DNA from: Lentisphaerota bacterium
GTDB lineage: Bacteria > Verrucomicrobiota > Lentisphaeria > Victivallales > Victivallaceae
Reading direction: 5' to 3'
Assembly: GCA_015061805.1 (NCBI GenBank)
Contig: SUVV01000020.1
Span: forward strand, 1 to 36,986
DNA length: 36,986 nt
Position 1 is the first letter of the stretch. Each line of letters opens with the position of its first letter. Made by a program: the position numbers and the translations under genes. The notes under the pieces were generated by a model that was not told where the DNA came from, ran no database searches, and saw nothing but the letters and a program-made list of their open reading frames with translations. Shown piece after piece: positions 1 through 19,888 of the stretch.

Positions 1-34
1 GAAAAACCTTTTTTCTCGTGAAAAAAGGTTTTTC
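1..34. repeat. Perfect 14-bp inverted repeat at window edge
   Basis: Positions 1-14 and 21-34 are exact reverse complements (GAAAAACCTTTTTT / AAAAAAGGTTTTTC) around the 6-nt loop CTCGTG. It begins at the first base, so the stem may extend outside the window. The T-rich 3' arm would suit an intrinsic terminator, but it could equally be the outermost hairpin of the repeat block that follows. No gene is visible to its left, so its role is not decided. Confidence 0.7.
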
Positions 35-42
35 CCCTCCCC

Positions 43-364
43 ACACCCCACCCCTTTTCGAAAAAAGCGAAGTATGTTTTGCTCACGTTGTTCGCAAAAC
101 GGGAAATATAAACTTATCATATCCTTACTCACGAAGTGAGCGCTTCACGTTTGCAGCAGGCAAATACTTCACATTGCGAAGCAATGCTTCACGCAGGATT
201 TATCCTGCTCTTCACGTTGGTTTGCAACGCAAAACAACACAATCATATCCTTACTCACGAAGTGAGTGCTTCATGTTTGCCACAGGCAAACGCTTCACAT
301 TGCAAAGCAATGCTTCATGCAGGATTTATCCTGCGCTTCACGTTGGTTTGCTGTGCAAACTAAC
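43..364. repeat. 322-bp tandem repeat unit, copy 1 (hairpin array)
   Basis: First of two head-to-tail 322-bp units. It opens with a C-rich stretch and a two-hairpin module: TTTTCGAAAA palindrome at 55-64, then GTTTTGC 76-82 pairing GCAAAAC 94-100. Two 126-bp sub-units of five hairpins follow. In the first sub-unit these are CTCAC/GTGAG 128-140, TTTGC/GCAAA 150-164, CATTGC/GCAATG 172-186, GCAGGAT/ATCCTGC 193-208 and the GTTG..TTTGC hairpin at 216-238. The second sub-unit repeats them at 253-267, 275-291, 298-312, 319-334 and 342-364. Hairpins are joined by GCTTCAC/GCTTCAT-like linkers. Short reading frames through it are periodic artefacts with no ribosome-binding sites. I recognise no named family. 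Confidence 0.9.
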
Positions 365-686
365 ACACCCCACCCCTTTTCGAAAAAAGCGAAGTATGTT
401 TTGCTCACGTTGTTCGCAAAACGGGAAATATAAACTTATCATATCCTTACTCACGAAGTGAGTGCTTCATGTTTGCCGCAGGCAAACGCTTCACATTGCA
501 AAGCAATGCTTCATGCAGGATTTATCCTGCGCTTCACGTTGGTTTGCAACGCAAAACAACACAATCATGTCCTTACTCACGAAGTGAGTGCTTCATGTTT
601 GCCACAGGCAAACGCTTCACATTGCAAAGCAATGCTTCATGCAGGATTTATCCTGCGCTTCACGTTGGTTTGCTGTGCAAACTAAC
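365..686. repeat. 322-bp tandem repeat unit, copy 2 (hairpin array)
   Basis: Second head-to-tail copy, differing from copy 1 at about nine positions, eight of them in the first 126-bp sub-unit. Its hairpins are ACTCAC/GTGAGT 449-463, GTTTGCC/GGCAAAC 471-487, CATTGC/GCAATG 494-508, GCAGGAT/ATCCTGC 515-530 and GTTG..CAAC 538-560. The set repeats from 575 and ends with GTTTGC/GCAAAC 668-682. Differences between sub-units fall in loops and linkers or keep the stems paired. Sub-units 2, 3 and 4 resemble each other more than the first, which suggests recent duplication or homogenisation. Confidence 0.9.
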
Positions 687-744
687 ACGCCCCACCCCTT
701 TTCGAAAAAAGCGGGGTACGTTGCCGCTCCGTTGTCGCGCCATA
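687..744. repeat. Two-hairpin dispersed module, copy 3
   Basis: A third start of the repeat unit that switches sequence after about position 712. Hairpin 1 is CCCC 695-698 to GGGG 713-716 around TTTTCGAAAA. Hairpin 2 is TGCCGC 722-727 to GCGCCA 737-742 (one mismatch) with loop TCCGTTGTC. It matches the copy at 19821-19872 closely, so this module exists independently of the 322-bp tandem units. Confidence 0.8.
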
Positions 745-864
745 GCCTTGGGCGACGGCGGACTGTCGCGGCGTGACTTACTTCAATGCTAACGTAGTTA
801 TTGAAAAATATTATCTCCCCGAAATGGGAACAGAGCGAAAGAAATAAATTTTCCCTCCGTTAAA

Positions 865-2830: not shown

Positions 2831-3557
2831 TGTGATTTTTGAAGTCCGGGATCTGATCAAGGATTTCCCGGAATTGCGGGCGCTGAATAAGGTCAGCACC
2901 ACCATAAAAAAAGGTGAAGTGGTCTTTGTTGTGGGGCCTTCCGGAAGCGGCAAAAGCACCTTTCTGCGCTGTTTGAATCTGCTGGAAACTCCGAGCGGTG
3001 GCGAGATTTTTTTCAAAGGCGGAAAGATCACCGCCAAACATTACGACATCAACAAGTTCCGGCAAAAGGTGTGCATGGTCTTTCAGCACTTCAATTTGTT
3101 CAGCAACCTGACCATCCACAAGAATATCACTCTGGCTCCGATCAAAACTCACCGTGCCAACCCGAAAGAAGCAGGAAAAACCGCCGACCGTCTGCTCAAG
3201 CGGATCGGATTGTTTGAAAAACGCAACGTCTATCCCAGTCAACTTTCCGGAGGACAGAAACAGCGCATTGCCATCATCCGGGCGCTGGCGATGAATCCGG
3301 ATGTGCTGCTCTTTGACGAACCGACCAGCGCGCTCGACCCGGAGATGGTAGGTGAAGTTCAGGCGTTGATGCGGGAACTTGCCAACGAAGGGATGACGAT
3401 GGTGGTGGTAACTCACGACATCGGCTTTGCTTCTGAAGTTGCCGACCGGGTGATTTTCATGGATCACGGCGAGATCGTCGTTTCCGGAACTCAGGAAGAG
3501 GTGATCAAAAATTCCGACAACCCCCGGGTAAAAGAATTCTTCTCCAAAGTCCTGTAA
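2823..3557 (+). CDS. Amino-acid ABC importer ATPase subunit
   Basis: A 244-residue GlnQ/HisP-type ATPase that would drive the fused permease encoded just upstream. All hallmarks are present: Walker A GPSGSGKS (38-45), Q-loop in VFQHFNLF (86-93), signature LSGGQKQR (141-148), Walker [13 protein letters not shown] (161-172) and switch histidine in VTHD (His198). The length is normal for the family. The start overlaps the permease stop by 8 bp, so the two are probably made in fixed ratio. No clear terminator follows directly. Confidence 0.95.
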
Positions 3558-3976: not shown

Positions 3977-5311
3977 TCAACCGGCGATTTCAATAAGAGC
4001 GCAGGCGGAGTTGGCAAAGAAGGAAAATTTTATCCTGCTGCCGTCAAACTCCACATCTTCCATCTCGGAAAGATAATGGTCGTTATCCAGAAGTAATACC
4101 CGGCATTTTTCCTGCTGTACCGGCACATCGCATTGCACGACCAATTCCAGCGGTCTGGTCTGGAATGCCGAAATCAGCATCGCCTTTTTGCCGGAGTCAT
4201 CTTCTCCGGCAAGTACCGTTACCTCTTTCATTGAACTGGATGCCTCCAGCCGCGCCGGATAGCGCACGATCTCTCCGAACGCTTTCAGTCCATACCAGGA
4301 GGGGGTCTTGATGTTAGTACTGGTAGCATAGCATCCCCAGGCTGTGTTGATGCAAGTGTAGTATGCTCCGTAATCCAGCGGTGTATCCTGCCACAAAGCC
4401 ATAACTGTGGTCAGAAATGCGGCACTGTCCAGACCTTTCATATCACTGTTGTACATGTGATCTTTATAGACCGGGTCATTACGCAGCCGCGCCCATTCAC
4501 CGGGGAAATAGTGCCATTCGTTGAGATGTATTTCCGCATCGGTGTAACCGTTTTCGTCGAGAAGTTTTCTGACCAGAGCCGGAGTTTCCTGTATCCAGCC
4601 GTAGGGATCTGCGGCATAACAGTGATAGCTGTAAAAGTCTATCGGAGCATGATTGGCGGCACAATACTTGACAAATTCAACATTGATCTCATTGAATTTC
4701 GTGTGCGCCGGCCCGCCGAATTTGAGATGCGGGAACCGTTTTTTCAGTTCTTTGGCAACTTTGACATAAAATTCATTGAACTGCTCCAGCGTTCCGCGCC
4801 ACATTTTGAACTCTTTGGCATCCGGTTCGTTCCAAATCTCCCAGTATTCGATATTGAAATTGAAACCGTCCCACAAACCTTCCGTGTAGTGGCGGATGAT
4901 ATTGGAACAGATATTTATCCATTTATCCACATCAGCAGGCGGATCGACCTTGTATTTTCTTACTGAATGGTCGATGGATTCTCCGAGCCGGTAATAGATC
5001 GGCGTATTGGAATCTTTAATGCAGTTGCAAATATAGTCATCGGTGTAACTGAAGTCATAGTTGCGACGGTCATTTTCGTCAAGATGTGGCAGCGGAAAGA
5101 TGTGGCTGATATCCACCAGACGGCAGCCGGGGTTGGAAAGCGGCGAATCGTGAAGCCGGGCAAAGGCAAGATTGAGCTGTTCAAAACTTTTCTTTATATC
5201 GGTGCTGGCATTGGCATTGGTGATGCATGGCGCCAGATTGCCGCCATTTAGTTTGCGGATAGTGGTTCCGGTTCTTTTGGTGGTGTTCCATAAAATATCG
5301 ACTTGCGGCAT
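3977..5311 (-). CDS. GH39-like glycoside hydrolase
   Basis: A 444-residue TIM-barrel glycosidase of clan GH-A, most like family GH39 (beta-xylosidase / alpha-L-iduronidase type). EIWNEPD places the acid/base glutamate at Glu162. IHLNEWHY places the nucleophile at Glu265, the expected spacing. HDSPLSNPG near residue 54 fits the early barrel strands, and the last 80 residues look like a small beta-sandwich. There is no signal peptide, so it probably acts in the cytoplasm on imported oligosaccharides. A strong AAGGGGGAA ribosome-binding site precedes the ATG. It stands alone, with its own terminator and an upstream AT-rich palindrome. The substrate cannot be decided from sequence. Confidence 0.85.
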   Translation of the reverse strand: MPQVDILWNTTKRTGTTIRKLNGGNLAPCITNANASTDIKKSFEQLNLAFARLHDSPLSNPGCRLVDISHIFPLPHLDENDRRNYDFSYTDDYICNCIKDSNTPIYYRLGESIDHSVRKYKVDPPADVDKWINICSNIIRHYTEGLWDGFNFNIEYWEIWNEPDAKEFKMWRGTLEQFNEFYVKVAKELKKRFPHLKFGGPAHTKFNEINVEFVKYCAANHAPIDFYSYHCYAADPYGWIQETPALVRKLLDENGYTDAEIHLNEWHYFPGEWARLRNDPVYKDHMYNSDMKGLDSAAFLTTVMALWQDTPLDYGAYYTCINTAWGCYATSTNIKTPSWYGLKAFGEIVRYPARLEASSSMKEVTVLAGEDDSGKKAMLISAFQTRPLELVVQCDVPVQQEKCRVLLLDNDHYLSEMEDVEFDGSRIKFSFFANSACALIEIAG

Positions 5312-6638: not shown

Positions 6639-7493
6639 TTACTTGGAAAACACGATCGTCCTGGAACCGGAGATGATCACGCGGTGTTCGAGGTGGGCGC
6701 GAACCGCACGGGTAAGTACGCGGCGTTCGATATCCCTGCCCCGCTGTTTGAGATCAGCAGGGGTGCTTTCGTGGGTGATGGGTTCGACATCCTGTTCAAT
6801 GATGGGTCCTTCGTCCAGATCTTTTGTAGCATAATGGGCGGTGGCGCCGATCATTTTCACGCCGCGTTCCCAGGCTCGGCGGTAGGGATCGCCGCCCATG
6901 AATGCCGGGAGGAAAGCGTGGTGGATGTTGATGATCTTTGAGGGATATCTGGCGATGAAGTCATCGGACAAAATCCGCATATAGCGGGCGAGTACGACGA
7001 GATCGACATGATGTTTGGCAAGCAGTTCGAGGATCTGCTGTTCCTGCTGGCGTTCGCCGCCTTTTTCGACCGGGCAGCAGTAGTAAGGAACGCGGAACTT
7101 GGCGGCTACCTCTTCCAGATCGGGATGATTGCTGATTGCCAGCACGACCCTGCCGCCGCCGAGAGTATTTTCCTCGGAATTCACCAGCATATCGTAGAAG
7201 CAGTGGCTGGTTTTGGAAACCAGCACCGCAACGTTACGGATATCGCCGATGTAGTGGATGGAATAGTTGAGTTGATATTCGGCGGCAAACGCGCTGAATT
7301 CAGCCTCAAGCGCCGTCCGGGTGATATCGGACGGCAAATCGACCAGAATACGGGTAAAGTATTCATTAGCCAAGACATCGGTGTACTGACGGCACTCAAT
7401 GATATTGAGGTCGCGGGAGTAGAAGAAACCGGAAATTGCAGCGAGCAGACCTTTGCGGTCGACGGTACGGATGAGAAAAACGACTTGACGCAT
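6639..7493 (-). CDS. purU: Formyltetrahydrofolate deformylase
   Basis: PurU hydrolyses 10-formyltetrahydrofolate to formate and tetrahydrofolate, balancing one-carbon pools and feeding formate to PurT. The 284-residue protein has an N-terminal ACT domain (about 1-82) and a formyltransferase-type catalytic domain (about 86-284). The catalytic triad is readable as Asn189, His191 (INIHHAFLP) and Asp227 (KDLDEGPIIEQ). Length is typical. I chose ATG 7493 over an upstream in-frame start because the latter lies inside the preceding sigma-factor gene and would add a non-homologous basic leader. It follows the sigma gene by 16 bp, so the two are probably cotranscribed. Confidence 0.93.
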   Translation of the reverse strand: MRQVVFLIRTVDRKGLLAAISGFFYSRDLNIIECRQYTDVLANEYFTRILVDLPSDITRTALEAEFSAFAAEYQLNYSIHYIGDIRNVAVLVSKTSHCFYDMLVNSEENTLGGGRVVLAISNHPDLEEVAAKFRVPYYCCPVEKGGERQQEQQILELLAKHHVDLVVLARYMRILSDDFIARYPSKIINIHHAFLPAFMGGDPYRRAWERGVKMIGATAHYATKDLDEGPIIEQDVEPITHESTPADLKQRGRDIERRVLTRAVRAHLEHRVIISGSRTIVFSK

Positions 7494-19810: not shown

Positions 19811-19820
19811 TTATTGCCCT

Positions 19821-19872
19821 CACCCCTTTTTCAGAAAAGCGGGGTAATTTGCCGCTCCGTTGTCGCGGCAAA
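19821..19872. repeat. Two-hairpin dispersed module, copy 4
   Basis: Located between the convergent ends of cca and the secreted hydrolase gene. CCCC-TTTTTC pairs with GAAAAGCGGGG (hairpin 1), and TTTGCCGC (19848-19855) pairs perfectly with GCGGCAAA (19865-19872) around loop TCCGTTGTC (hairpin 2). It matches 687-744, and structurally the modules opening each 322-bp unit at the left end. A REP/BIME-like element between convergent genes is a reasonable reading; it has no T-run, so it is not a standard terminator. Confidence 0.8.
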
Positions 19873-19888
19873 GAGATATCACTCCGGA

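Follow-up and report, generated by a model that had tools for sequence, protein, structure and literature searches.

The window, a stretch of 36,986 nucleotides from contig SUVV01000020.1 of a Lentisphaerota bacterium (Victivallaceae; assembly GCA_015061805.1), begins with an array of short hairpins. The array at 42-722 consists of two head-to-tail units of 322 bp with 20 hairpins, each of which was placed by position, and the hairpins are joined by a short linker, GCTTCAY, referred to here as the tag. The coordinates of the array and of the elements around it are summarized in Table 1.

Table 1. Features of the hairpin array and its relatives in the window.
Feature	Position	Strand	Basis and remarks
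Lead palindrome	1..41	.	15-bp perfect arms 1-15/20-34, then CCCTCCC; cut by contig start; inverted repeat I1
First 322-bp unit: module CACACCCCACCCCTTTTCGAAAAAAGCG.., hairpin 77-99, AT-rich spacer, two 5-hairpin sub-units	42..363	+	Tandem Repeats Finder; repeat family D1; matches elsewhere in genome
Second 322-bp unit	364..685	+	9/322 differences from first unit; Tandem Repeats Finder
Single hairpin of leader module, TTTTGCTCACGTTGTTCGCAAAA	77..99	+	Second copy 399-421
Sub-unit 1a	117..240	+	Hairpins 128-140, 149-165, 173-185, 193-208, 216-238; member of alignment A1
Sub-unit 1b	243..366	+	Hairpins 254-266, 275-291, 299-311, 319-334, 342-364; alignment A1
Sub-unit 2a	439..562	+	Hairpins 450-462, 471-487, 495-507, 515-530, 538-560; alignment A1
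Sub-unit 2b	565..688	+	Hairpins 576-588, 597-613, 621-633, 641-656, 664-686; alignment A1
Third, partial copy of leader module	686..745	+	686-722 89% identical, into hairpin GCCGCTCCGTTGTCGCG..; family D2, match 690-745
Probable right-hand module (..GTCGCGGCGTGACTTACTTCAATGCTAACGTAGTTATTGAAAAATATTATCTCC)	746..823	+	By eye
Short relative: leader module and GCCGCTCCG/CGCGGC hairpin only	19811..19888	+	Fills 78-nt gap between two convergent genes

A sequence-only reading of this DNA had proposed about 20 hairpins with a GCTTCAY linker, arranged in 322-bp units with 126-bp sub-units, and both proposals hold. GCTTCAC or GCTTCAT is found in 14 of the 16 internal linkers, the two exceptions (ACTTCAC at 166 and TCTTCAC at 209) lying within the first sub-unit, and Tandem Repeats Finder recovers both periods, 322 with 2.1 copies at 42-713 and 126 at 116-351 and at 438-673. 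The pattern GCTTCAY-N14-26-GCTTCAY occurs six times in the window, always inside the array, where 0.01 occurrences are expected from 100 shuffles. Folded as single-stranded DNA, one 126-nt sub-unit has a z-score of -4.60, and 0 of 200 shuffles were equally low. The layout of five hairpins per sub-unit is likewise present; the loops were said to be mostly of 3 nt, and the fourth hairpin has a loop of 2 nt (TT) or 4 nt (TTTA). Two further amendments are that pairs are missing from hairpin 149-165, the second one of the first sub-unit, and that each 322-bp unit carries one further, different hairpin in its leader module. The block extends beyond the proposed 43-686, with a palindrome ahead at 1-34, truncated by the end of the contig, and a third, partial copy behind. 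For the proposal that stems keep their pairing as loops change, the window itself gives only a faint sign, since the two units differ at nine of 322 places, and support comes from 41 copies of several species (see below).

The nine fixed differences between the units and the presence of the family at 40 separate places in the genome argue against an artefact of assembly, which was therefore rejected. The window contig begins inside the lead palindrome and shares 125 identical bases at its start with a second contig, C12, which indicates that the repeat breaks assembly. Several contigs in these assemblies terminate in such repeats. By way of the C12 overlap, the gene upstream of the window copy, off the contig, would be one with a glycosyl hydrolase 2 domain. 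The downstream gene lies 291 bases on, is on the same strand and has a rhodanese domain, and it is followed by amino-acid-type ABC transport genes. Coding of protein by the window copy was rejected, because the unit length of 322 is not divisible by 3 and 0 of the 40 places overlap a gene called with a simple codon-usage finder. The earlier proposal that structure rather than protein is kept thus holds for these copies, in which the stems also covary.

A DNA search of the genome of the window (2.29 Mb, 34 contigs) with one unit gave 66 matches, which were merged by hand into the 40 places. The content per place ranges from a fragment to four full sub-units. The make-up is modular. The lead palindrome and the leader module are followed by a single hairpin in one of two versions (TTTGC..GCAAA or GCCGC..GCGGC), then by an AT-rich spacer and the hairpin string. 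The hairpin GCCGCTCCGTTGTCGCG.. stands in place of TTTTGC..GCAAAA in many copies. Judged by eye, the probable right-hand module is near-identical after the copy at C19:29279 and more diverged after those at C20:163303 and C1:5836. The short form in the window has 42 matches in the genome, counting itself and parts of long copies.

The lead palindrome has 63 sites in the genome at up to 3 mismatches. Elsewhere in the genome it is longer than the cut copy of the window. Of the 40 arrays, 34 are preceded by a perfect palindrome whose arms measure at least 12 bp; six have none ahead, one of them being cut by a contig end. Among the 33 arrays with a same-strand called gene, the palindrome starts 3-36 nt past the stop codon in 30, and the others start at 200, 364 and 387 nt. 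The outermost pairs of the palindrome vary by place and are still complementary (TGT/ACA, TTT/AAA, TC/GA, GC/GC, TAT/ATA). At two loci, L056 (about 3206-3290) and L047 (about 2960-3032), sequence of the GCCGAACGTCGGCCTCGG type replaces part of the second arm of the lead palindrome, as if exchanged. With regard to a miniature transposon (MITE), which has terminal inverted repeats and a target-site duplication, the two ends resemble each other by eye in some copies (GGGGAGAT/ATCTCCCC), and no empty site with such a duplication could be aligned among the orthologous gene ends compared.

The arrays have a strict relation to genes. In 36 of the 38 places that have an upstream gene called, this gene shares the strand of the array, and the flanking genes are convergent in 31 of the 37 places with both called. 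At a stricter threshold, array-bearing gaps are convergent in 31 cases, tandem in 3 and divergent in 2 (n=36), compared with 4 convergent among 128 other gaps (Fisher p 6e-24), a background that was drawn from the same stretches as the arrays with genes from the simple codon-usage finder and so is not unbiased. Relatives show the same bias, with 14 of 17 array gaps convergent versus 2 of 35 others (Fisher p 4e-8). Of the 31 gaps in the window as a whole, 3 are convergent, and the short form occupies one of these three. A link to tRNA genes was rejected for the window type, since tRNAs are found at 2 of its 36 loci in this genome; the tRNA association belongs to a second type. A DUF4838 domain is present in 4 of 20 array-flanking proteins scanned in this genome (L071, L069, L063, L070).

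Covariation of the stems was investigated with alignment A1, which contains 41 distinct sub-units from several species and 34 stem pairs. CTTCA does not vary in any of the four linkers across the 41 rows. Pairing is retained in 98.2% of cells, and double changes are found in 10 of the 34 pairs. There are 72 double-change cells, compared with 19.0 in shuffles, in which relatedness remains, and at most 6 when the alignment is slid. Further pair types number 19 versus 21.6 in shuffles and are thus not above the control. The helix of the third hairpin never varies and is therefore uninformative on covariation. Stem forms that covary include CTCGC/GCGAG, CTCAC/GTGAG and CTTGC/GCAAG, as well as GCAGGAT/ATCCTGC, GCCGGGAA/TTCCCGGC and GCCGGAC/GTCCGGC. 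As outcomes counting against it, the sequence-only reading had named a lack of further copies in related genomes, a lack of stem-preserving variation and an artefact of assembly; further copies were found, the stems covary and an artefact is argued against.

The majority of the matches listed for the order (see below) belong to a different, tRNA-linked array, in which the same linker as in the window type joins different hairpins. Its layout starts with the tRNA CCA end, a palindrome, a first hairpin flanked as ATGAAGC-hairpin-GCTTCAT and three hairpins with GCTTCAT, and continues with a centre complementary to the first hairpin and then hairpins with the inverted tag ATGAAGC. A regular expression located 35 such elements in 46 loci. 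ARAGORN places a same-strand tRNA directly upstream of 24 of the 35, and two lie at contig edges; the other nine are three second or isolated copies, one behind another hairpin string and five behind what looks by eye like a decayed tRNA 3' end. The linked tRNAs are those for Ser, Pro, Phe, Ala, Val, Arg, Gln, His and Leu. The slots of the 35 elements share a set of hairpins whose order varies, e.g. GGCAC-GCA-GTGCC, GCACC-GAA-GGTGC, ACGCC-GTCA-GGCGT, ACCGC-ATCT-GCGGT and ATTTTGCGGC-NNN-GCCGCAAAAT, and one element has a hairpin four times. The palindrome of 7 of 24 elements includes 5-7 nt of the tRNA 3' end, to which its other arm is complementary, and three sequence forms of this occur. Covariation between the first hairpin and the centre is visible by eye (CTGAAAAGGC/GCCTTTTCAG, CTGTCAAGGC/GCCTTGACAG, GCCGTCAGGC/GCCTGACG), L221 and L224 being among the exceptions. 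The inverted arm has purine loops and GGA/GGA-like internal loops on the strand opposite the tRNA; a (GGA)2 zipper motif is said to have been described in centromeric DNA by Chou, Zhu and Reid in 1994. The genome of the window has at least three tRNA-linked elements (L346, L347 and L348, on contigs C2, C11 and C23). Loci L346-L348, L196-L225 and L349-L358 hold bipartite arrays of roughly 220 nt at tRNA CCA ends. Further strings with CTTCAC/ACTTCAC linkers, unlike both types, occur at L197 (tRNA-Ala) and L220 (tRNA-Pro).

Of 234 loops in the first three hairpins of the window type, 153 are of the form C(GNA)G or C(GNNA)G and ten more are misparsed GTAA; they come from 78 units that were left after 3 of 81 without a clean parse had been removed. 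Hairpins four and five mostly have other loops. On the tag strand, 72 distinct stems from three sets comprise 41 with G-N(1,2)-A loops, 5 with T-N(1,2)-C loops and 26 with neither. In the same order of classes, the counts are 14/4/14 for the window type (n=32), 16/1/5 for the first arm of the tRNA-linked type (n=22) and 11/0/7 for its inverted arm (n=18, with stems down to 2 pairs). The inverted arm keeps the G-N(1,2)-A bias on the tag strand, so the loop bias tracks the tag and not the direction of the neighbouring gene. GNA and GNNA loops closed by G-C pairs give extraordinarily stable DNA mini-hairpins, and d(GCGAAGC) is reported in the sections drawn on here to melt at 78 C (PMC4686876). 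The loop kind is the same here, where it predominates in hairpins one to three and is frequent among the tRNA-linked elements; what is described for it there is a physical property of oligonucleotides, whereas the array is a genomic family (PMC4686876).

In other species of the genus, related strings are found in frame within the signal peptide of prepilin genes. The frame is open from before the string through the prepilin motif in 8 of 17 loci (L086, L087, L088, L093, L095, L097, L107, L108), some of the remaining loci being cut by contig ends. The motif FTLIELLV is doubled or tripled around a string of at least four linkers in 7 of the 17 (L086, L087, L088, L093, L095, L107, L108), and its F-T codons (TTCAC) are part of the tag. 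All three doubled-motif proteins tested have an N_methyl domain, and one has DUF1559. Prepilin inserts in the genome of the window, at L056 (minus strand, motif at 6893) and L077 (plus strand, motif at 4955), resemble the lead palindrome or other repeats, not the hairpin string.

The presence of arrays at given genes differs between related genomes. In the genome of the window, three genes that flank copies have full tags within 500 nt, 7 for enolase, 1 for formate-tetrahydrofolate ligase (FTHFS) and 1 for GlnRS. At none of the same-genus orthologues, which were identified by tblastn, were two or more tags found within 500 nt (enolase 0/10, FTHFS 0/8, GlnRS 0/20), a set made up of all same-genus matches with a locus, with one GlnRS match (G005) left out. 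Single tags occur at 3 of the 38 orthologous gene ends, and a regular expression found the lead palindrome at none of them. By eye, G016 carries a variant of the lead palindrome together with a leader module behind GlnRS, in the opposite orientation, and a related fragment stands behind FTHFS in G008. The genes around the orthologues are arranged in a different order, so the absence is to be read as lineage-specific presence of the arrays and not as an empty site at each position.

A link to a Y1 transposase, which the earlier reading had suggested as a check, was not obtained. The genome of the window has a single, degraded Y1_Tnp match (G000:C29:20906-21220, with 3 internal stops), and no match was found in the array-rich but incomplete genomes G003, G015 and G018. 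Y1_Tnp matches are present in 20 of 37 genomes, this one included, and their presence does not follow that of the arrays. These genomes thus gave no link of the arrays to a RAYT or other Y1 transposase, and on present evidence the family is not RAYT-linked.

The best explanation of these observations is that the window array is one copy of a dispersed, non-coding family of the REP/BIME kind, whose building block is a near-perfect hairpin plus an unpaired GCTTCAY tag. With a probability of roughly 55%, the family is a DNA-level, tag-directed one, in which single-stranded hairpin pieces are inserted or swapped and are kept at the 3' ends of genes. The hairpins would act as folded single-stranded DNA, and an enzyme or a replication process working on single-stranded DNA would insert or swap hairpin-tag pieces at the tag, as tagged REPs are thought to move. 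The arrays themselves would have moved in this way, and 3' gene ends may tolerate them because nothing is disrupted there. A benefit to the host, e.g. a 3'-end barrier against readthrough or exonucleases, would be secondary if there is any. Four options had been offered from the sequence alone (a structured RNA, a protein-binding array, a recombination or replication structure, and a mobile REP-like element), and the last is best supported, as the copies are dispersed at 3' ends, modular, and absent at 38 of 38 orthologous ends. Several points count against the explanation. No enzyme was seen to follow the arrays, Y1_Tnp being the one compared, and no target-site duplication or clean empty site was observed. 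The strict polarity to the upstream gene exceeds what tolerance alone explains, and template-switch repair of palindromes could equally yield covariation and near-perfect pairing. It is conceivable, though not likely, that the family is a system of cassettes, i.e. hairpins, often capped by GNA or GNNA, on a constant 7-nt joint, which would be swapped, inserted and inverted as single-stranded DNA and anchored at stop codons and tRNA CCA ends by an undescribed, order-specific enzyme other than a RAYT or an integron integrase.

Alternatively, the array could be a structured RNA in the 3' trailer, co-transcribed with the upstream gene or tRNA, with hairpins that block exonucleases, end transcription or bind a protein. 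This is unlikely. A selected RNA helix should tolerate G.U pairs on its own strand, and the 766 stem pairs of 103 unique hairpins contain 7 G.T, 5 A.C and 5 other mismatches. G.T is about as rare as A.C, which speaks for DNA rather than RNA. Among the 875 pairs of 35 tRNAs from related loci, 85 are G.U (9.7%; Fisher p 2e-16 against the hairpins), a contrast that is overstated because the hairpin script trims end mismatches while the tRNAs were folded by energy with G.U accepted, a more permissive method; the near-equal counts of G.T and A.C are independent of this difference. The tRNA-linked arm has 7 G.T and 4 A.C mismatches, with mis-split segments among these. One unit folds well as RNA (z = -5.35), as an RNA should, but so does the reverse strand (z = -4.75). 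Rfam at gathering score gave 0 matches in the window and 9 in 14 loci, every one a tRNA, and this absence together with the scarce G.U pairs weakens the RNA option of the earlier reading. The polarity to a same-strand upstream gene, the tRNAs directly upstream of most tRNA-linked elements and the covariation of first hairpin and centre are what a trailer RNA would give, while the purine loops and GGA/GGA-like internal loops of the inverted arm lie opposite the tRNA strand. There are 8 terminator-like sites in 1-1100, compared with 1.9 in shuffles, and three of them, with CTTCATGTTT tails, are at the first hairpins of sub-units 1b, 2a and 2b; against this, the lead palindrome is followed by CCCTCCCCAC without a T run, and no terminator-like site is present at 1-41. 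An explanation by terminators alone was found insufficient, several convergent genes retaining their own terminator-like hairpin beside the array (by eye).

Distinctly unlikely is a passive by-product of replication, in which template switching at GCTTCAY makes, perfects and multiplies quasi-palindromes with no enzyme and no function. Such a process would account for the near-perfect pairing with similar numbers of G.T and A.C, for outermost pairs of the lead palindrome that are specific to a place and still complementary, and for the locus-specific copying of tRNA 3' ends into palindrome arms; the tag, the preference for GNA and GNNA on one strand, the placement at stop codons and CCA ends and the limited spread (36 of 137 genomes) need something more specific. 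BIMEs serve as gyrase and IHF sites, and an array of protein-binding or supercoil-absorbing sites between convergent genes, with small cruciforms extruded, would suit the bias toward convergent gaps and the stability of the short hairpins as DNA (z = -4.60), but it is very improbable, since the same tag and loop kind recur after tRNA genes and within prepilin genes and the array is absent at orthologous gene ends, and we know of no protein that binds the array.

The closest known kind is that of tagged REPs and BIMEs, which the family resembles in its manner of working. GTAG- and CGTC-tagged REPs, REP dimers and BIMEs are short palindromes with an unpaired tag, high in copy number and intergenic. 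Most of them stand behind genes, in gaps whose flanking genes are convergent or tandem, with some intragenic, and the CGTC super-family is likewise without a dedicated transposase (Di Nocera 2013, PMC3733652). The window family shares the short, dispersed, high-copy palindrome (66 matches, 40 places) and this preference for 3' gene ends and for convergent or tandem neighbours, and it is, like BIMEs, a mosaic of palindromes and fixed extra modules, with up to four five-hairpin units per place. Set against tagged REPs as that review treats them in these parts, the tag is GCTTCAY, different hairpins share one tag, the hairpins are in one orientation and form strings of at least five; hairpins recur across slots, a lead palindrome is present, the arrays lie near stop codons or the tRNA CCA, and no link to a RAYT was found (PMC3733652). 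No GTAG or CGTC is present at the hairpin foot, where GCTTCAY occupies 14 of 16 linkers in the window and CTTCA is invariant in A1. The tag differs, which places the array outside the GTAG and CGTC families.

Other systems of short palindromes share part of this design. Arrays at Streptomyces telomeres are also short DNA palindromes in a row with sheared GCA, GGA and other GNA loops, and are resistant there to single-strand nuclease; they lie at the ends of linear chromosomes and no constant tag is mentioned in the sections of the source considered, whereas the arrays here lie at 40 places (PMC7205883). Rickettsia palindromic elements and PARCELs are palindromic repeats that enter reading frames, as the related strings in prepilin genes of other species do and the window copy does not; compared with the relevant portions of those accounts, in-frame copies here are at one site, the prepilin signal peptide, and the strings in the genome of the window are intergenic (PMC3733652, PMC2996958). 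Many tRNA genes of one archaeon are likewise followed by a palindrome at a fixed position; unlike the arrays, it is a single short motif and has no hairpin string. Repetitive hairpin-forming elements of sponge mitochondria (PMC2800124) and double-hairpin elements show similar intergenic spread and lineage-specific forms, but they belong to organelle genomes and no constant linker string is reported in the abstract. A literature search of titles and abstracts, with thin coverage of subscription journals, found no description of a GCTTCAY hairpin repeat.

If the explanation as a tag-directed DNA family is right, one tag with exchangeable hairpins would provide a natural system in which to read the origin and movement of hairpin repeats, which is an open question for REPs. 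The stable mini-hairpin structure of DNA, previously met in synthetic DNA and in Streptomyces telomeres, would be put to use inside a genome. The link to tRNA CCA ends may bear on tRNA maturation, and the in-frame prepilin copies on repeats that create protein extensions.

The family has a limited spread among its relatives, which are uncultured bacteria of the gut. With the unit as query, 20 of 59 relatives and the genome of the window match, some over short parts only, in 2 of 23 genera. A pattern of three tags at set spacing is found in 36 of 137 genomes of the order (this one included) and in 12 of 48 genera, compared with 2 for the reversed control, the figure of 36 being a little too high because coding-like repeats are among the matches (G087, G013 and part of G014). 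In viral_contigs, an exact 27-position pattern had no match and a loose three-tag pattern matched at least 120 stretches; among 80 viral loci examined, 5 have two hairpins with a stem of at least 4, unlike the arrays of the window. In a draw from the phylum, 34 of 387 genomes match the three-tag pattern, 26 of them within the order. Outside the order, 8 genomes match compared with 10 for the reversed control, so the pattern alone shows nothing there. By eye, one genome outside the order, G404, is the only one with hairpins at its matches, and no tRNA was found in the one locus scanned. This genome, from another class of the phylum (L363), has five matches of the form GCTTCAT-GCTCATTTATGAGC-GCTTCAT-hairpin-GCTTCAT, all on one strand.
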